Below the pieces are notes generated by a model that was not told where the DNA came from, did not search any database, and saw nothing but the letters and a program-made list of their open reading frames with translations. Shown piece after piece: positions 10,248-64,000 of a stretch of DNA of 64,000 nucleotides. The DNA is taken from NCBI RefSeq assembly GCF_014192335.1, contig NZ_JACHXU010000018.1, positions 62,001-126,000 of the forward strand, written 5' to 3'. Position 1 is the first letter of the stretch; every line of letters starts with the position of its first letter. The position numbers were made by a program, and so were the translations under genes. Source of the DNA: Aporhodopirellula rubra (GTDB lineage: Bacteria; Planctomycetota; Planctomycetia; Pirellulales; Pirellulaceae).

Positions 10248-11519
10248 ATGTCGACCGCGCCTGCCGAATCCCAGACCGAGACCAACGACCCATATTTTCA
10301 GTCCCTGTTTGCCGAACGGATCGGCGGGGCGAATTATGGCAAGGGAACCGAGATCTACAAATTCGAAAAGATCAAACGGGCCAAACGAAAAGCACTCGCA
10401 GACCAGCCTGAGCGGAAATTGCTGGATTTCGGCATCGGCGAGAACGACTCGATGGCCGATCAAAGCATCCGTGACACGATGCAGCGAGAAATCAACCGCG
10501 TCGAGAATCGTGGCTACGCCGACAACGGTGTCGCGGAATACAAAGAAGCCGCCGCTCGTTTCATGCAACGCAACTTCGGCGTCGAACTCGATCCGGCAAC
10601 CCAGATCAACCACTGCATCGGCAGCAAACCGGCCTACGCGATGTTGCCCGCCTGCTTCATCAACCCCGGCGACATCACGATGATGACCGTCCCCGGTTAT
10701 CCCGTCGCGGGCACCCACACGCGTTACTACGGCGGCGACGTTTACAAACTGCCGCTGCTCGCCGAAAACAACTTCCTGCCCGATCTCGATGCGATCCCTG
10801 ACGACATCTATCGTCGTACGAAGTTAATGGTATTGAACTACCCCAACTCGCCGACCGGCGGAACCGCACCGGCCGAGTTCTTTGAGAAGGTCGTCAAGCT
10901 CGCCAAAGAAAAAGAGTTTGTCGTTGTCAACGACGCCGCCCACATCGTATTGACGTTCGACGGCAAGCCGAGAAGTTTTCTCGAAACGCCCGGTGCACTC
11001 GACGTCGGCGTCGAAGTCCACTCGATGAGCAAGGGCTACGACATGATCGGATGGCGAATGGGATTTGTTGCCGGTCACCCATTGATCGTGCAAGCGTTCG
11101 CGGATGTCAAAGACAATAGTGACAGCGGTCAATTCATTGCCACACAAAAGGCGGCCGCCGCGGCACTCGACGACGACTCGATCCCCGAGCGGATTCGGGC
11201 GAAATACCGTCGCCGGATGGAGAAACTCGTCAAAGTCCTCAAAGACGCTGGCTTCGAAGCCGAGATGCCCGGCGGAACATACTTCCTTTACACCAAAGCC
11301 CCAACGCAATCCGCATCCGGCGAAACGTTTGCCGCTGCCGAAGACGCCACCCGTTTCCTGATCGAACAATTCGGCATCGTTACGGTGCCGTGGGATGACG
11401 CCGGTGCGTTCTTGCGATTCAGCGTGACGTACATCGCCGAAGACGAAGCCGCCGAAGACGCCTTGATGGCGGAAACGGCTTCACGTCTCGCTGGGGCCGG
11501 ATTGCAATGGAAATCCTAG
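10248..11519 (+). CDS. dapL: LL-diaminopimelate aminotransferase-like class I/II aminotransferase
   Basis: 423 residues from the ATG of MSTAPAESQ; the longer ORF from 10083 adds a non-conserved leader. It is a fold-type I PLP enzyme with substrate-entry motif ANYGKGTEIYKFEKIK, the LNYPNSPTGG loop, and the PLP lysine in HSMSKGYDMIGWRMGF. The N-terminal block (ERIGGANYGKGTEIY) matches DapL-type enzymes of chlamydiae, plants and planctomycetes. They transaminate tetrahydrodipicolinate to LL-diaminopimelate for lysine and possibly peptidoglycan. An aspartate or alanine aminotransferase role cannot be excluded from sequence alone. Its last 13 bases overlap the start of aroC, so the two are coupled. 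Confidence 0.75.
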   Translation: MSTAPAESQTETNDPYFQSLFAERIGGANYGKGTEIYKFEKIKRAKRKALADQPERKLLDFGIGENDSMADQSIRDTMQREINRVENRGYADNGVAEYKEAAARFMQRNFGVELDPATQINHCIGSKPAYAMLPACFINPGDITMMTVPGYPVAGTHTRYYGGDVYKLPLLAENNFLPDLDAIPDDIYRRTKLMVLNYPNSPTGGTAPAEFFEKVVKLAKEKEFVVVNDAAHIVLTFDGKPRSFLETPGALDVGVEVHSMSKGYDMIGWRMGFVAGHPLIVQAFADVKDNSDSGQFIATQKAAAAALDDDSIPERIRAKYRRRMEKLVKVLKDAGFEAEMPGGTYFLYTKAPTQSASGETFAAAEDATRFLIEQFGIVTVPWDDAGAFLRFSVTYIAEDEAAEDALMAETASRLAGAGLQWKS

Positions 11520-12721
11520 GCGGCCCCCACTACGCCGTCGCCGGTGCCGGCGAATCGCACGGCCCCGCTGTCACCACGATCATTCACGGTTGCCCTCCCG
11601 GACATCAGATCCGCCGCGCCGAGGTACAACCGTTTTTGGATCGTCGCCGACCGGGCGGAAACAAACACGGCACACCGCGAAACGAAAAAGACAAAGTCGT
11701 CTTCCTCTCGGGGCTGTACCGTGATGACGTCGACGTCCTCCTCGGCGGTTCGACGCTCGGTGTCAATGTCGACGGGGCGTCGTTCGAAACCGAAGGCTAT
11801 GAAGACGGATTCACAACAGGTGAACCGATCGCTGCCATCGTGTTGTCGACGAGTAAAAAATCAGGCGACTACACGCAGTTCACAGGCCCCGGTGGAGAAG
11901 TCCGCCCGGGACATACCGACCTCGTCAAATATCACCAATCCAAAGGGTTCGTCGATATCCGCGGCGGTGGACGGTCGAGTTACCGTAGCACCATCAGTGA
12001 CGTGATCGGCGGCAGCGTCGCGAGGATCGTACTGCAACAATTGTTCGGTGTTCGGATTCTTTCGTCGATCAGCCAAGTGGGGTCTCTGCGAACATCAATG
12101 AAACTGGGCGACAAACTCTCGCTCGAAAACGCGGACGAAACCCAGCGACAACTCGACGAAGCGGAAATCCCATCGATCGATGTGGAGTTTGCTAAAGCCG
12201 CAGGTGAAGCAATCAAAGAAACGCGTCGGCGAGGTGACTCGCTCGGCGCCGCCGTGGAAGTGGTTGCCGTCGGTGTGCCACCTCTGTTGGGTAACCCGCT
12301 CTACCAGAGTTTGAAAGTGCGTCTGATGGGCGTCCTCGGTGGGCTCAACGCCGTGCAGTCCTGCGAGATCGGATCCGGCGTTGACGTCGTCGAACGAACA
12401 GGCAGCGACAACAACGATCCGATCCGGCATGACGGTTACCAATCCAACACGCACGGCGGTCTCATTGGCGGCATCACCACGGGGAATCCATTGGTCGCGC
12501 GCGTCGGATTCAAGCCGACGTCGACGATCAACCTGCCGCAGAAATCCGTCACGAAAAACCTCCGTGACATCGACTTTGAACTCGCTAAAGGACGCCATGA
12601 TCCGTGCGTTGGCGTTCGAGCGGGAGTGACACTTGAGTCGCGAATGGCAATCGAATTGCTCAACTCGCTGCTCGCGTATCAAGCATCCGCTCACGCCGGC
12701 GATCCGATCAATCTGTTTTAG
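11507..12721 (+). CDS. aroC: chorismate synthase
   Basis: 404 residues. The FMN-dependent enzyme makes chorismate from EPSP, the last common step to aromatic amino acids. The family fingerprints are present but diverged: AGAGESHGPA, HGCPPG (usually DGCPPG), FLDRRRPG, GHTDLVKYH, RGGGRSSYRSTISD (usually GGGRSSARETA) and RHDPCVGVRAGV. The catalytic Arg of the second signature is kept. Several inserts make it longer than the usual 350-390 residues. It overlaps dapL at its start, and its last 14 bases overlap the end of the opposing FHA gene. Confidence 0.93.
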   Translation: MEILGGPHYAVAGAGESHGPAVTTIIHGCPPGHQIRRAEVQPFLDRRRPGGNKHGTPRNEKDKVVFLSGLYRDDVDVLLGGSTLGVNVDGASFETEGYEDGFTTGEPIAAIVLSTSKKSGDYTQFTGPGGEVRPGHTDLVKYHQSKGFVDIRGGGRSSYRSTISDVIGGSVARIVLQQLFGVRILSSISQVGSLRTSMKLGDKLSLENADETQRQLDEAEIPSIDVEFAKAAGEAIKETRRRGDSLGAAVEVVAVGVPPLLGNPLYQSLKVRLMGVLGGLNAVQSCEIGSGVDVVERTGSDNNDPIRHDGYQSNTHGGLIGGITTGNPLVARVGFKPTSTINLPQKSVTKNLRDIDFELAKGRHDPCVGVRAGVTLESRMAIELLNSLLAYQASAHAGDPINLF

Positions 12722-57745: not shown

Positions 57746-59338
57746 TCAACGCTCCTCTTTGGATTCCCACCACGTTTCCCATTGCCGAGTGAGTTCCTGG
57801 ACTTTCTCGGGGTGATCGGAGGTAAGGTCATGACATTCGGTCGGATCGGCGTCGAGATCATACAACTCCCAATTCGACTGACCGAACCGCACCAATTTCC
57901 ACTGGTGATCCCGAATCGCCTTGGCTCGGTTGAACTGCCAGAACATTGGCCACGGGCGGTCTTGAGATGTTCCGTTGAGGGCATCCTGCAACGGTTTGCC
58001 CGGCAACTCCTTGTCCGGAGTCACCCCCGCAGCGGCCAACATCGTCGGCATGAAATCGATTAGGTGACCGACCCGGTCGGTAATCGCCCCAGGCTCGGTC
58101 ACGCTCGGCCAAGCGGCAATCATCGGAGTCCGTGTACCGCCTTCATAATTGGTCGTCTTGTACTTGCGATAAGGCGTGTTCGACGCGTTCGCCCAACCTC
58201 TCCCCTGAGTCTGAAAACTCGTCACTTCCCAGGGCATCGCACCGGCAACGGTGGAGCGATCCGCTGAATCGTCGGTCGCACCATTGTCCGATAGAAAAAA
58301 CACCATCGTGTTTTGCGTGTCACCATTTTTTTCGATCTGCTCAAGGATGCGTCCGATCCCACGATCCATGCGGTCGATCATCGCCGCATAGGTCGCCATT
58401 CTCAAATCCCAGAGATCACGTTCCGATTCGGGAACATCCTCCCATGCCGGCGCATTCGGATCTCGCGGCGAGAGCTGCGTTCCCGGCGGCAGAACGCCGA
58501 GTTCGAGCTGTCTGGCGAAACGCCGCCGACGCAACTCGTCCCAACCGATCTCGCCGTAACGTCCACGGAATTTTGCGATGTCCTCTTCGCTCGCATGCAG
58601 CGGATAGTGGGGTGCTGTGTAGGCTACATACAACAAAAACGGTTTGTCCTCATCTTTGTATTCGTCGAGATACTTCACCGCGTAATCTGTAAACGCATCG
58701 GTCGTATAAAAATCATCCGTCGGTGGCTGATACGGATAAAATTCCTTTTCGTCGATCGCCCAACGCCGAACCCGCTTCTTCGCCGGCTCCGGCTCACCCT
58801 CCCTCGCATGCCCTGGATTCCAATAGTTGCAACACCCATCGGTAAGACCGTAGTGCCGGTCAAACCCACGCTGATACGGCGTCTGCCCCGCGTGCCATTT
58901 GCCAACCATCAGGGTTCGATACCCCGCGTCTCGCATCCGTTCGCCGTACGTTGGCGCACTGTAATGCACCGTAGGCGAGGCTCCCACGTGATGCCACCAA
59001 CGCCCGGTCAACAACGAAGCCCGCGTCATCTCGCACTTGGCATTGTTGTAAAAATTGCGAAACCGCATCCCCCGCGCGGCCAACGCGTCAAGGTTCGGTG
59101 TGTCGATCTCTCCTCCATAACACCCGATGTCAGAGAACCCCATATCGTCAGCCATGATCAAAACGATATTCGGCCGATCAGGTGCATCCGCGTGAGTAGG
59201 TGAGCCAACCAGGGCAACCGACACTATGATGATCGCCACCGTGAGCAACAGTGACAATGGTCGACGTGCCGAATGAGCCAACCTGCGTTGGAACCGTTTC
59301 AAACGCGTGGCCAGAGCTGTGGGGAGGGAATGGAACAT
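57746..59338 (-). CDS. secreted sulfatase (S1 family) with CEMTR maturation motif
   Basis: 530 residues. A signal peptide (PLSLLLTVAIIIVSVALVG, cleavage near THA-DAP) precedes the sulfatase N-terminal block RPNIVLIMADDMGFSDIGCYGG. The formylglycine site would be Cys102 in KCEMTRASLLTGR; the Pro or Ala usually at +2 is Met. Other metal and substrate residues are in place: DDM, MVGKWHAGQ, VFFLSDNGATDD. The chosen ATG begins the signal; the ORF continues 20 codons upstream. It should cleave sulfate esters outside the cytoplasm, perhaps from algal polysaccharide. Whether the variant Cys is matured is unclear. Confidence 0.85.
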   Translation of the reverse strand: MFHSLPTALATRLKRFQRRLAHSARRPLSLLLTVAIIIVSVALVGSPTHADAPDRPNIVLIMADDMGFSDIGCYGGEIDTPNLDALAARGMRFRNFYNNAKCEMTRASLLTGRWWHHVGASPTVHYSAPTYGERMRDAGYRTLMVGKWHAGQTPYQRGFDRHYGLTDGCCNYWNPGHAREGEPEPAKKRVRRWAIDEKEFYPYQPPTDDFYTTDAFTDYAVKYLDEYKDEDKPFLLYVAYTAPHYPLHASEEDIAKFRGRYGEIGWDELRRRRFARQLELGVLPPGTQLSPRDPNAPAWEDVPESERDLWDLRMATYAAMIDRMDRGIGRILEQIEKNGDTQNTMVFFLSDNGATDDSADRSTVAGAMPWEVTSFQTQGRGWANASNTPYRKYKTTNYEGGTRTPMIAAWPSVTEPGAITDRVGHLIDFMPTMLAAAGVTPDKELPGKPLQDALNGTSQDRPWPMFWQFNRAKAIRDHQWKLVRFGQSNWELYDLDADPTECHDLTSDHPEKVQELTRQWETWWESKEER

Positions 59339-59483
59339 AATGCTTGTCCACTTTTGTTGTAGGCGGGAACTGCGCGAGCTCCGACGGATCGGTCTCACGG
59401 CAGCCGGAAATCGAATCGATTACCGGCTCAGTGTCGCCACTCATCTAGGACAAGTCAAATCTTTCACTCCCTGGAGCCCCGCG

Positions 59484-59537: not shown

Positions 59538-61805
59538 TTATTCACCGATAGGAAGAATCTGTACTGCATCGGCGTGAACATCCCTACCGGCACCCTCCGT
59601 CGCGAGCGTCACCGTGACGGGAACTCCTTCGGCCAAATCAAACCGACCGATCGAATGGAAAATTCCGTCCGAAGGCGGTTCTTGCATGTTCACCCTGACC
59701 GTCGAGACTTTGTCACCAATTCCGATCGTGACAGGAACCTGATCGCCACAATTTGCATGCGGACGATACGCGATGCGAATCTCGAACCGCCCCTGGCTCG
59801 GCGTGTCTGCTTTGAACTCAATGGTCGCATCGTCGTACCCATGGCTGAAAAGGTAGTTCGTTCCCACGAACCCTTCCAAGCTGATACTCGGCCGCCATTT
59901 CGGTGACTTTTTCGCCTGACTGTCGTCAATCACGATCCCAGGAAGTGAAGCGGGATCAATCCCCATCGCGAGCCCCTGGTCAGTCGCTTTGGTCATCGCA
60001 TCTTCAGGAATTTCAATTTCGGCATCGACCGTCTGACGTCGTGCTTTTCCAGGCAACAGGAGCAACTCATGCATTTCGTCCCAGTAACGTTCGTAAATGC
60101 TACGAGGTAAACAATCGTGCAAAATGCAAAGGCTCGTCGCGCGTCCAACAACTTCGCCCATCATTCCACACGTCTTCATCACTCGGGTCGTACCCAACGC
60201 CTCGTGCGTCACGCTGACATTGCGCCCTGCCATGAACAGGTTGTCGATGTTCCGTGAATAGAAACATCGATACGGAACCGGATACCCATAGTTGCGATCG
60301 ATCCGGCGATCATGCACCGCTTTAGAAATGAAAGGATTCTCAGGAAACTTCTCCGCATATTGTTCTTTGGGATAGTGCAAATCAATCGACCACGTCGTCG
60401 GCACGCACCCGTCTTTAAAATCACGTTTCGAGATCACGTCCTCTTTTGTCAAAACAACATCGCCCATCAAACGACGAGATTCTCGAGGACCGCCGATGTA
60501 TGCGATCCATGTCAAGAACGCCGAAGGATGCTCGTCGGCACCGTCACCGTTCTTCATCGCATTGAACGCACCATAGACGGCACGCAAATTCCAATCGCGG
60601 ATCGCTTCGGCACCGTCAATCGGATCTTTGTCGAACCCGCCTTCCCAAAACCACTGACCGTGATGCTCGCGTGGATAGGGGAAGTCGGCCATGTTCAAAT
60701 CCAGTGCCCACGGTGTTTCGGGAAACGTAACAGGAACATCTGCCTCATTCCATGCCCACATGTTGCTCATTCCCATCCGCCCCTTCGGCGTCATTTCGAG
60801 ATCGGCACCGGCGAGATGGCCGATAGTCCCATGACCGGTACAGTCAACGAAGAACCGTCCCGTGAACCGCTTCACCTCACTCGTACGAGTGTCAAACGCA
60901 TGAACCGCCTGGATCGAAGACTGGTTCATCTCCACCTTGAACGCGTGGTGATTAAGGAACAAATCGATGTTCTCTTCGGCACGAACGATCGCTTCCTTTT
61001 TGGCGTCCTCGAATTCTTCATAGGTACCAGGCGATTTCGTGGCGTGATCCGAAATTTCTTCAATGATCTCGCCGATCCGTGGGTACTTGCCGCGACGGAT
61101 ATTCCCCATCGCCCAAACACGAATCTCACTCGATCCGTTCCCACCGAGGACCGGACGATTTTGCACGAGCGCAACTTTGCACCCCATCCGTGCAGCGGAA
61201 ATCGCGGCGCCCAAACCCGAATATCCACCACCGATCACGACGAGGTGATAGCCATCTTCTTCAGTCGGTGTTTCCTTGAGCCCTAACATTTCGCGACGCC
61301 AGCCCGGAAGGATCGCCGAAGTGTTCGGTGGAGCCTCATCGCCCTGGGTAAACAAAATCGCGTCGCATCGACCGTCAAACCCGGTCAAGTCTTTGAGCGA
61401 AACCGTTGTTTGCACATCCTTGATATTAACCGTCCCACCATCATGCCAAAACCATTCCGCCCCTTTGGTTCCGAACGTCTCGTCGAGCGGCTTACCGTCG
61501 ACGATCAACTGAAAACGGCCTGGTTGCCCGGGTGCATTCCAACGGGCTACCCAATCCTTTGTGCGAACATAAACGCGATACTCTCCGGTGCTCGGAAAGG
61601 TAACCGTTGTCGATGCGTCTCTGACCGGTTTCCCCAACCCATGTGCCAACAAATACGGTGACCCCATCGTGTCGATGAACTGCGTATCGAGTTTCCATCC
61701 CCCATGCGTGTCGAAGCTCTCTGCTTCAACGAGTACCTGATCCGCTCTCGCCGGGACGATCATCGCGACCAACAAGACGAAGGCCGAAATTGTTTTGAAT
61801 GACAT
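59538..61805 (-). CDS. secreted FAD-dependent oxidoreductase with flanking beta domains
   Basis: 755 residues. A signal peptide (SAFVLLVAMIVPARA) is followed by a beta-sandwich domain (EYRVYVRTKDWVARWNAPGQ), resembling the golvesin-type domain. The FAD-oxidoreductase fold begins at about 195 with the GxGxxG motif in VVIGGGYSGLGAAISAARMG. Other conserved parts are FFVDCTGHGTIGHLAGADLE and CFYSRNIDNLFMAGRNVSVTH. A second beta domain (RFEIRIAYRPHANCGDQVPV) closes it. The family oxidises unknown substrates outside the cytoplasm; sulfatase neighbours suggest a carbohydrate. It follows the GH110-sulfatase gene by 332 bases on the same strand. Confidence 0.85.
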   Translation of the reverse strand: MSFKTISAFVLLVAMIVPARADQVLVEAESFDTHGGWKLDTQFIDTMGSPYLLAHGLGKPVRDASTTVTFPSTGEYRVYVRTKDWVARWNAPGQPGRFQLIVDGKPLDETFGTKGAEWFWHDGGTVNIKDVQTTVSLKDLTGFDGRCDAILFTQGDEAPPNTSAILPGWRREMLGLKETPTEEDGYHLVVIGGGYSGLGAAISAARMGCKVALVQNRPVLGGNGSSEIRVWAMGNIRRGKYPRIGEIIEEISDHATKSPGTYEEFEDAKKEAIVRAEENIDLFLNHHAFKVEMNQSSIQAVHAFDTRTSEVKRFTGRFFVDCTGHGTIGHLAGADLEMTPKGRMGMSNMWAWNEADVPVTFPETPWALDLNMADFPYPREHHGQWFWEGGFDKDPIDGAEAIRDWNLRAVYGAFNAMKNGDGADEHPSAFLTWIAYIGGPRESRRLMGDVVLTKEDVISKRDFKDGCVPTTWSIDLHYPKEQYAEKFPENPFISKAVHDRRIDRNYGYPVPYRCFYSRNIDNLFMAGRNVSVTHEALGTTRVMKTCGMMGEVVGRATSLCILHDCLPRSIYERYWDEMHELLLLPGKARRQTVDAEIEIPEDAMTKATDQGLAMGIDPASLPGIVIDDSQAKKSPKWRPSISLEGFVGTNYLFSHGYDDATIEFKADTPSQGRFEIRIAYRPHANCGDQVPVTIGIGDKVSTVRVNMQEPPSDGIFHSIGRFDLAEGVPVTVTLATEGAGRDVHADAVQILPIGE

Positions 61806-62137: not shown

Positions 62138-64000
62138 TCACTGAACGCCCGAGTATTCCTGAACTCCCATTTGCACTTCCCACGCAATCAGTTTGCGCGT
62201 CAACGCGTGGACGATCTCCGGGTGAGAAGCCGCCAAGTCGTGTTTCTCGCCTTCATCGTCGGGAATGTTGTAGAGACTGACCTTTCCACTTCGGTAAGCG
62301 AGCAACTTCCAATCGCCCTCGCGGACGGAAACGTACAGATCCTCGTACGCCCGATATCCGACCAAGGGTTCGCCACGATCGAGTACACTGTTTTCGCGTA
62401 TCGTCGACACGAGCGAGACGCCATCGAGGTTTTCATAGTCACCAGGGTTTCCGCCCGCGATCTCGACCATCGTCGGGAACAAATCGGTTGACTGAACGAG
62501 GCTTTCGTTCCGAGTCGGTTTACTGACACCGGGCCAGTGCACCAGCATCGGCACACGGGATCCACCCTCACACAACGCGTCAACGCGTTTGCTGCCGCGA
62601 AGAGGCAAGTTCTGATACCAACTGCCTTGATCGGACAAGAAAATTACCACGGTGTCCTTGTCGATCTCTTTCTGCGCCAGTGCCTCACGCAAACGCCCCA
62701 CCGATTCGTCCACCGCTTTCACTTGAGCGGCGTAAACCGCATCTTCTTTGGCGTACCCTTTTGCCTCGAAGTCTTCAACGAAATCACGGCGCCCCACCGG
62801 TGGCCGATGCACATTGTAATACCACATGGACAACATGAACGGTTGATCGCGATCATATTGCTTTACAAACCGCACCGCCTCATCGGTCAGCGTGTCGGTG
62901 AGGTAGCGTTCTTTCTCATCCGCCAACACATCAGAGTTTTTAAAAAATGGTGGATAGTACGACTTCGGATGCCCCGCGTTGCTCGTTCCGAACTGTGCAT
63001 CAAAGCCTTGTTTGATCGGATGATAGGGCTCATGGCCGAGATGCCATTTACCGAAAAACTGATTGTAATACCCCAGTCCTTTGAGCGTCTCCGCATAAGT
63101 CGTGTGTTCCAACGGCAGCCAATTTCGACACGGAAACTGCGCCGGGTCAGTCTCCCACAAATTGAATTCGTCATCGGTCCGACCAAATTTGTCAAAGCCG
63201 AATTTGGGTTCGTTGGGAATGTGCCGTACGATTTGCAAACGGGTCGGGTGTTTGCCTGTCAGTAGCGTCGCGCGACTGGGACTGCACGTCGGACTCGGGA
63301 TGTAGGCCCGTTCGAAATCAACGCTCTCGGCCGCCAAACGATCAACATTGGGAGTCTCGAACTTCGCGTTGCGATACCCAAGATCATTCCATCCTAGATC
63401 GTCAACGAAGAGCAACAGGATATTCGGTTGATGACCGACCGCCCCGACGTCGTCAACCGATGGCGATTTCTTGTTATCGCGGGCTTCTCCTAAGCCGGCA
63501 TTGCTTTCGACCTTCAGATTGGTTGTGTCTATCGACGCCCCCACGGTCAATTCATGGTCGAACCCGAGGACTTTATTGTTTCGGATCGTCACATCATCGC
63601 AATACTCCAATACAATTGCGTCACCGACATCAACAGGAGGATAATCGTTGCTAAATTCGATCGTGTTTCCGGAAATATTCAGCCCCTTCACCGACCGAGC
63701 GTTGGCGATCAAACCGTTGAAGCTCTTCAGGGTATTTCCAGTGAAATCGATGTTTCGATGATAATGCCCTTCGCCCCAATGCTGATCGGCGGTGAAGAGC
63801 GGCGACGCGAGCAACGGATACCGGGCGGTTGCCTCGTAGCCGACATTGTCAAACACATTGTTGCGAATCGTGATGTCTTGAACCGCTCCCGATTCGTACC
63901 ATTTGTTGTTGTCACCTTCGATCAAAATGCCATGCATTTGCGAACCGAAATAGTTGTTCTCGATCAACACTTTTCCCTTGGTCGTGACCAACACGGCGCG
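62138..64000 (-). CDS. GH110-like beta-helix galactosidase fused to a sulfatase, 5' end off the window
   Basis: 620 residues are visible and the frame continues past the right edge. The first 170 residues are a right-handed beta-helix with repeated ITIRNN, LNISGN and VTIRNN steps. The block MHGILIEGDNNKWYESGAVQ matches the GH110 family of alpha-1,3-galactosidases as I recall it. After a 20-residue linker (EARDNKKSPSVDD) a complete sulfatase begins: QPNILLLFVDDLGWNDLGY, formylglycine site CSPSRATLLTGK (Cys237 from the first GTG), FFGKWHLGHEPY, VVIFLSDQGSWYQN. The sulfatase has no signal of its own, so the fusion is real. It probably removes galactose and sulfate from carrageenan-like chains. 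The GTG at 63994 is internal. Confidence 0.85.
   Translation of the reverse strand, partial: RAVLVTTKGKVLIENNYFGSQMHGILIEGDNNKWYESGAVQDITIRNNVFDNVGYEATARYPLLASPLFTADQHWGEGHYHRNIDFTGNTLKSFNGLIANARSVKGLNISGNTIEFSNDYPPVDVGDAIVLEYCDDVTIRNNKVLGFDHELTVGASIDTTNLKVESNAGLGEARDNKKSPSVDDVGAVGHQPNILLLFVDDLGWNDLGYRNAKFETPNVDRLAAESVDFERAYIPSPTCSPSRATLLTGKHPTRLQIVRHIPNEPKFGFDKFGRTDDEFNLWETDPAQFPCRNWLPLEHTTYAETLKGLGYYNQFFGKWHLGHEPYHPIKQGFDAQFGTSNAGHPKSYYPPFFKNSDVLADEKERYLTDTLTDEAVRFVKQYDRDQPFMLSMWYYNVHRPPVGRRDFVEDFEAKGYAKEDAVYAAQVKAVDESVGRLREALAQKEIDKDTVVIFLSDQGSWYQNLPLRGSKRVDALCEGGSRVPMLVHWPGVSKPTRNESLVQSTDLFPTMVEIAGGNPGDYENLDGVSLVSTIRENSVLDRGEPLVGYRAYEDLYVSVREGDWKLLAYRSGKVSLYNIPDDEGEKHDLAASHPEIVHALTRKLIAWEVQMGVQEYSGVQ

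Follow-up and report, generated by a model that had tools for sequence, protein, structure and literature searches.

A GH110-sulfatase fusion in Aporhodopirellula rubra as a candidate exported two-enzyme protein for sulfated galactans

The locus described here, from the marine planctomycete Aporhodopirellula rubra, raises the question of whether a galactosidase and a sulfatase have been joined into one two-enzyme protein and, if so, in which order the two would act. The window, the whole stretch of 64,000 nucleotides that was analysed (G000:C18:62001-126000, from an 8.5 Mb genome), holds the 3′ part of the gene at 62138..64000 on the (-) strand, where residues 451-1070 and the stop codon are encoded in a frame open to the window edge; contig C18 runs on past it. 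From that part the earlier note had read a GH110-like beta-helix passing in one frame, through a linker, into an active-site-complete sulfatase, had argued against two genes with a missed stop, and had proposed extending the frame to its true start, comparing both halves with HMMs and searching other genomes for the same fused order. Each of these steps bore out the one-frame reading. The whole gene (G000:C18:124138-127350, (-) strand) is a complete ORF of 1070 aa, a single uninterrupted frame of GH110 domain, linker and S1 sulfatase that contains both the MHGILIEGDNN and CSPSR motifs. In Pfam the full protein matches both GLAA-B barrel models (I, 83 bits; II, 44.8 bits), Beta_helix (56.7) and Sulfatase (168.5).

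The GH110 domain covers residues ~41-612, and its C-terminal part (residues 451-612), placed by PDB alignment and a column check, lies at 63515..64000 (-) and holds R451, E478, W484 and E486 of the -1 subsite, while the catalytic Asp residues 319, 342 and 343 fall beyond the window edge. The interdomain linker of ~30 residues (613-641; 63428..63514, (-)) was delimited by hydropathy and by low pLDDT in a model of the orthologue from Aporhodopirellula aestuarii, and the S1 sulfatase domain (residues 642-1070; 62141..63427, (-)) by Pfam, PDB matches and the orthologue fold, with the CSPSR formylglycine signature (residues 689-693) at 63272..63286 (-). The orthologue model, built with AlphaFold2 from a 28-row alignment, shows both domains mostly with good confidence (mean pLDDT 86.2) and a low-confidence stretch at 583-599 between them, and its pTM of 0.60 leaves the orientation of the domains relative to each other unsure. 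At the N-terminus of the fused protein there is a hydrophobic leader, called by hydropathy only (15-residue Kyte-Doolittle maximum 2.31 at residue 26, compared with a maximum of 0.31 in the linker); by eye, each of 20 standalone sulfatases seems to start with its own leader. The earlier claim of one exported two-enzyme protein stands as to the two-enzyme chain, through its residues and Pfam matches, and its export is read from the hydrophobic leader alone; a single exported two-enzyme protein is our best reading of the sequence.

The same in-frame fusion was found in four further Pirellulaceae, in every case with no internal stop: A. aestuarii (G008, 1074 aa open frame), R. sallentina (G012, 1092 aa), R. 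solitaria (G005, 1089 aa) and an uncultured Pirellulaceae MAG (G204, 1063 aa). Because five separate assemblies carry it, a missed stop or a sequencing slip is excluded. The linker varies among the five proteins in both length and sequence. Outside the family, no such fusion turned up among 396 genomes sampled from the order or 274 sampled from the phylum (two candidates scored per genome, E 1e-150). Within the family GH110 is unfused in 11 of the 16 genomes that have it, and the 600 bases downstream of 17 unfused GH110 loci hold no recognisable remnant of the fused sulfatase; the stronger matches in those scans (7 loci, 34-52% identity) look like different sulfatases nearby. Two further candidates were dropped: an 1184 aa open frame in G001, which shortens to a standalone 608 aa GH110 when read from its start codon, and a GH110 match in CA13 that seemed to run past its stop into a sulfatase, with no sulfatase similarity beyond that stop.

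The first half of the fused protein belongs to GH110, as the earlier note had supposed, and this is borne out by sequence, by the fold of the orthologue and by all catalytic residues. Among solved structures it comes closest to PdGH110B and GH110A (7jw4, E 4.7e-93; 9beh, E 6.1e-93), and in Foldseek searches domain 1 of the A. aestuarii orthologue matched GH110A/B at a TM of 0.84-0.92 to the target (9beh and 9bev at 0.91-0.92, 9bev at 0.92). The catalytic and -1-site residues of PdGH110B have been named (PMC7939477): D319, D342 and D343 correspond to its D321, D344 and D345 and are kept in 32/32 aligned GH110 rows; N98, R295, N346, R451, E478, W484 and E486 of the -1 subsite correspond to N85, R265, N348, R453, E480, W486 and E488; and R449 of the +1 subsite corresponds to R451. 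By analogy we predict that this half acts as an inverting alpha-1,3-galactosidase. Glu480 of GH110B versus Arg460 of GH110A separates enzymes for unsulfated from those for 6-sulfated terminal galactose (PMC12549532). The corresponding E478 position is Glu in 27/27 clade rows, Arg in four GH110A-like rows and Pro in one divergent row, and E478 suggests that the fused GH110 prefers unsulfated galactose, with the reservation on GH110B typing that D518 of PdGH110B, the partner of E480, aligns to Pro517. The Arg rows are a second GH110 of the same cluster (L003:5176-6981) and three relatives, so that the cluster seems to carry both GH110 types.

In the second half, alignment with the best PDB match, 9fo1 (AMOR_S1_16A; E 5.1e-76, 116 of 274 aligned residues or ~42% identical, in three alignment blocks), confirmed the active-site-complete sulfatase that the window had suggested. 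All core residues compared are present (D650, D651, C689, R693, H848, D907, Q908 and K921), and CSPSR 689-693 satisfies the C/S-x-P/A-x-R signature. Among the metal and sulfate sites D650, D651, D907, H848 and K921 match, and the position of the fourth ligand, Asn264 in 9fo1, is taken by Q908; it is Gln in 27/27 clade rows versus Asn in 6/6 outgroup rows. The top sulfatase for domain 2 of the orthologue in Foldseek is likewise the S1_16 enzyme 9fo1 (TM 0.81). Second in the PDB search is 6UST, a 6-sulfatase that has been grouped with S1_16 (PMC11760155), and S1_19 enzymes are also near. The clade to which the fused sulfatase belongs has 27 rows in our tree, from Planctomycetota, Verrucomicrobiota and Bacteroidota, none of them among solved structures. 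The A. rubra genome encodes two FGE-type proteins and no anSME at E 1e-20, which fits with maturation of the CSPSR cysteine.

AMOR_S1_16A desulfates the non-reducing-end galactose-4-sulfate of kappa-carrageenan oligomers (PMC11760155), and by analogy we lean towards galactose-4-sulfate specificity for the fused sulfatase. Of the residues that mark S1_16, its His125 and His149 are found as H770 (27/27 clade rows) and H794 (25/27), whereas its pocket Trp (W79) is replaced by H710, a His in 27/27 clade rows; this Trp is present in just 37% of S1_16 sequences (PMC10154612). The position of Glu270 is Q913 in the window protein and Glu in 12/27 clade rows. The change of W79 to His710, the variable Glu270 position and the 6-sulfatase activity of 6UST leave this specificity less than secure.

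The neighbouring genes give the fused protein a setting. Immediately downstream, at 59538..61805 (-), is a FAD_oxidored + Golvesin_C protein, and A. aestuarii and R. sallentina have a homologue of it beside their fused genes as well. On the far side of this gene is another sulfatase gene (57746..59398, (-)) with no counterpart at that place in either of those two loci. Upstream, on the strand of the fused gene, are an S1_15-like sulfatase (L003:3530-5101; 6s20 E 7e-160, 9bas S1_15A E 2.3e-156), the second GH110, whose 6-sulfate site has the Arg of the GH110A type, a GH42-like gene (37.7 bits) and a second FAD_oxidored gene (L003:9873-12503). Further upstream come a symporter-like gene (by eye) and a GH16 (L095:655-1989, G000 C18) whose best PDB match is a kappa-carrageenase, weakly, at E 2.6e-10; this GH16 is matched in two stretches, and an F5/8-type C region (a Pfam match below cut-off) may sit within its catalytic domain. 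No S1_8 was found among the cluster genes typed, the S1_8-like gene of A. rubra being on contig C5 beside a GH97. GH110 is accompanied by S1_15-like and GH42-like genes in loci of Pontiella, Pontiellaceae and Wenyingzhuangia too, and by S1_15-like genes in Pelagicoccus and Polaribacter; no GH42 or S1_15 homologue was found within the ~10 kb flanks of the fusion in R. solitaria and the Pirellulaceae MAG. GH2 is confirmed by Pfam in L104 and was called by eye in other loci. Pontiella F21, which grows on iota-carrageenan (PMC6388578), carries GH110 and the sulfatase clade. In Pontiella sulfatireligans a 1172 aa open frame (L055:1147-4665) is GH42-like over residues 38-813.

From these residues, nearest structures and neighbours we infer, besides export, a regiospecificity, an order of steps, a substrate and a benefit of tethering, and we give about an even chance to the resulting proposal: an exported bifunctional exo-enzyme that would act on sulfated galactan oligosaccharides, probably those of red algae, by GH110 first and then by exo-4-desulfation. 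In carrageenan the 4-sulfate sits on the beta-galactose (G unit) and is exposed only once the alpha-galactose has been removed. The 3-linked beta-galactose carries 4-sulfate in the mu, nu, kappa and iota types and 2-sulfate in lambda, and mu and nu units are alpha-Gal6S or alpha-Gal2,6S on beta-Gal4S. Since 9fo1 removes Gal4S at the non-reducing end, and the 4-sulfated G unit is exposed after loss of the alpha-galactose, GH110 would precede the sulfatase, and the order in the earlier note, desulfation first and then cleavage of the alpha-galactose, is probably reversed. Oligosaccharides from carrageenases begin with the alpha-linked D unit, from which 6-sulfate (and 2-sulfate) would first be stripped by S1_15 (and S1_8) enzymes; the adjacent S1_15-like sulfatase, of 6-sulfatase type, and the GH110A-type gene may handle alpha-galactose-6-sulfate. 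The GH110 half, of GH110B type with unsulfated galactose in its -1 subsite, would then cut the non-reducing-end alpha-1,3-galactose with inversion and uncover a 3-linked beta-galactose bearing 4-sulfate. Exo-desulfation of this galactose would fall to the S1 sulfatase tethered on the same chain, after its maturation by the FGE of the genome. Finally, the neighbouring GH42-like beta-galactosidase would remove the desulfated galactose, and the cycle could restart. The S1_15 sulfatase, the GH110A type and the GH42 next to the fusion point to mu/nu- or lambda-type carrageenan, with mu/nu-type units as the best-fitting predicted substrate and lambda-type second.

The order put forward in the earlier note, in which the sulfatase first removes 6- or 2-sulfate from terminal alpha-galactose and GH110 then cuts, following the logic of lambda-carrageenan, appears to us rather unlikely. 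It fits the known pathway, where GH110A/B require prior desulfation (PMC12549532), as well as the preference for unsulfated galactose at which E478 hints, and if the fused domain were a 6-sulfatase like 6UST, its second-best match, that order would be right. The literature on lambda-carrageenan also speaks for it, as GH110 has been linked with GH150 lambda-carrageenase, also in Rhodopirellula sp. SWK7 (PMC6262041), and R. sallentina, itself a fusion carrier, is reported with a lambda-carrageenase (PMC4807772). However, the 2- and 6-sulfatases of the lambda pathway are S1_8 and S1_15 (PMC12549532), and the best matches of the fused domain are neither; its closest relative by both sequence and fold is an exo-4-sulfatase, the S1_15-like enzyme is a separate neighbour gene, and the S1_8-like gene is on a different contig, next to GH97.

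Apart from the GH110 fusions, the sulfatase clade has a second kind of partner. In Rhodopirellula sp. SM50 (L048:6559-9885) a sulfatase of the same clade (77%) is fused to a GH97 (Pfam 196.8 bits), which matches the alpha-galactosidase 3a24 (E 6.4e-51) and also 5e1q, named a retaining alpha-galactosidase, and which keeps the Asp that is Gly in 5e1q and that we take to be the GH97 nucleophile. In our proposal of GH110 first, this GH97 would do the same job for the sulfatase. At E 1e-50, GH97 occurs in 16/241 genomes, and its close clade (62-100% identity) in 10, nine of them with the sulfatase clade. In CA13 (L112) GH97 is fused in the opposite order, behind an S1_8-like sulfatase that matches the galactose-2-sulfatase S1_8A best (E 3e-104). 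The corresponding S1_8-like and GH97 genes of A. aestuarii adjoin with 23 bases between them, and on contig C5 of A. rubra they are split by a transposase-like gene (L123:6811-8205, IS66-like by eye). A broken remnant of the same GH97, in two pieces with three TGA in one, is present at G179:C1:6672025-6673333, in a genome that has retained the sulfatase. Other features of the SM50 locus are an 814 aa open frame (L048:2455-4899) that is itself another fusion, of a sulfatase with a PhoD-like phosphatase domain, and a pair of related proteins (L048:4892-6562 and 11051-12532) that flank the GH97-sulfatase fusion and in which Pfam finds no enzyme domain. One of the pair matches CARDB only, just under the cut-off. 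An 81% homologue is found near GH97 in G001 (L127:475-2145), and it is possible that these proteins form an unrecognised enzyme family.

The trees suggest how these combinations arose. A nine-row clade of the sulfatase tree (support 100/99) consists of the five GH110 fusions, the GH97 fusion and three standalone copies. One standalone copy, in G222 (L097:7909-9528), has GH110-like first and last segments, in the right order, between its leader and its catalytic domain. For the C-terminal stump, 0/1000 shuffles were as good against four fused proteins, while against R. sallentina 116/1000 were, giving no support there; for the N-terminal stump, 0 to 14 of 1000 were as good against the five fused proteins. 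This pattern suggests that the G222 sulfatase arose by internal deletion of GH110. In G255, a standalone sulfatase has an SM50-type leader joined straight onto the SM50 linker end, which could reflect either a deletion of GH97 in G255 or its insertion in SM50. Well-supported branches of the GH110 tree force at least two of the three changes that the fused label takes there. The record probably goes back to an ancestor in which GH110 and the sulfatase were already fused, with losses afterwards and a single swap to GH97; independent GH110-sulfatase fusions may be the alternative.

The two enzymes also tend to occur together where they are not fused. Across the family set of 241 genomes, the sulfatase clade (E <= 1e-120) is found in 22 and the GH110 clade (56-100% identity, with GH110A types at 34-35%) in 16, with both in 14, some on separate contigs; 14/16 GH110 genomes thus have the sulfatase clade, versus 8/225 of the others. 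The association holds for unfused GH110 genomes (9/11; Fisher 2.3e-10) and among genera, where all five GH110 genera are inside the nine sulfatase genera, of 68 (p 1.2e-5). As controls, we followed two other sulfatases of A. rubra: at the common cut-off one is present in 98 of the 241 genomes, including 8 of the 16 with GH110, and the other in 72, including 10 of the 16. Cut to their best 22 genomes, they overlap GH110 in 7/22 (p 1.3e-4) and 6/22 (p 1.3e-3), compared with 14/22 for the fused-type sulfatase (difference from controls p 0.016); neither control is significant among genera (0.22 and 0.11). Since the controls track GH110 genomes too, through shared ancestry, the raw p overstates the link, and in genus g1 the association is confounded because one control sulfatase is found in the same five genomes and in a sixth. 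The GH110-sulfatase link exceeds shared ancestry alone, but it is weaker than the raw p implies. Seven of the 22 sulfatase-clade genomes have neither alpha-galactosidase clade (GH110 or GH97). Beyond the planctomycetes we found 13 GH110 loci. The sulfatase clade is present in all seven of their genomes that were searched, at a best identity of 51-66% against at most 40% for matches outside it, and two further loci, L049 and L053, show it within the locus stretch. In Wenyingzhuangia the GH110 and the sulfatase are adjoining separate genes, and in a Pirellulaceae MAG a GH2, a sulfatase, a GH16 and a GH110 all lie within ~9 kb.

These patterns bear on whether fusion does anything for the chemistry, or provides joint export and equal amounts only, with the two sites working independently and no kinetic gain. 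We hold the latter to be unlikely. The flexible linker that differs between species and the low pTM are what it would predict, as are the GH110 genes left unfused in 11/16 family genomes and in seven non-planctomycete genomes, and the G222 lineage, which keeps its sulfatase with mere GH110 stumps. Against it, one sulfatase clade has been fused to two unrelated alpha-galactosidases and the GH97 clade also to another sulfatase, and such repeated sulfatase/alpha-galactosidase fusions in differing combinations suggest a selected pairing of activities. That one half is a non-catalytic targeting module is very improbable, as we found no point in its favour and both halves have catalytic residues that are kept across the clade. 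An assembly or sequencing artefact, for which there is likewise nothing to say, is scarcely credible given the in-frame fusion shared by five separate assemblies.

Going beyond the two-enzyme proposal, and more tentatively, we suggest that the sulfatase clade could be a distinct exo-sulfatase subfamily for sulfated galactose uncovered by an alpha-galactosidase, wired to inverting GH110 and retaining GH97 by fusion, swap and un-fusion, and supplying the alpha-Gal to Gal4S step for mu/nu carrageenan. Few S1 sulfatases have a known substrate, and a fused partner is a direct substrate clue; two unrelated alpha-galactosidases on one sulfatase clade predict which sulfate goes, and when. The fused proteins are also ready-made material on whether tethering speeds consecutive exo steps. 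Among the literature matches listed, in the parts available, we found no description of the enzymatic breakdown of mu/nu precursor carrageenan, though mu and nu are among the growth substrates named in PMC6262041. If mu/nu units are the true substrate, this would be an enzyme route for precursor carrageenan, relevant to algal biomass processing and marine carbon turnover.

Glycosidase-sulfatase fusions as such are known, including S1_7 with GH10/GH32 and S1_15 with GH29 (PMC6388578), others in PMC4807772, and PDB 6hr5, a GH78-sulfatase by molecule name. They share with the A. rubra protein a glycosidase and an S1 sulfatase in one chain and occur in planctomycetes and Kiritimatiellales, but they use other glycosidase families. 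No GH110- or GH97-sulfatase fusion was found among the literature matches listed, as far as their accessible text goes and with most subscription papers outside their scope; what appears to be new here is the union of GH110 with an S1 sulfatase, the GH97 partner swap and the record of fusion and probable un-fusion. The closest GH110 system is that of Pseudoalteromonas distincta (PMC7939477, PMC12549532), with which A. rubra shares the fold (in the orthologue model), the catalytic residues and the -1 subsite, as well as a cluster that brings together GH110B, GH110A and S1_15 types. The P. distincta GH110s are separate enzymes, whereas the GH110B type of A. rubra is fused to a sulfatase nearest another subfamily; the lambda-carrageenan cluster of P. 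distincta has a GH2 where A. rubra has a GH42-like gene, and no S1_8 was identified among those A. rubra cluster genes that were typed. The nearest solved sulfatase, AMOR_S1_16A, has the core residues and the two S1_16 histidines in common with the A. rubra clade and differs by Trp79 and Asn264, which are His and Gln in the whole clade; it is not described as fused. Its authors speculate that a galactosidase producing its substrate is perhaps encoded nearby (PMC11760155), and in A. rubra a galactosidase is attached.
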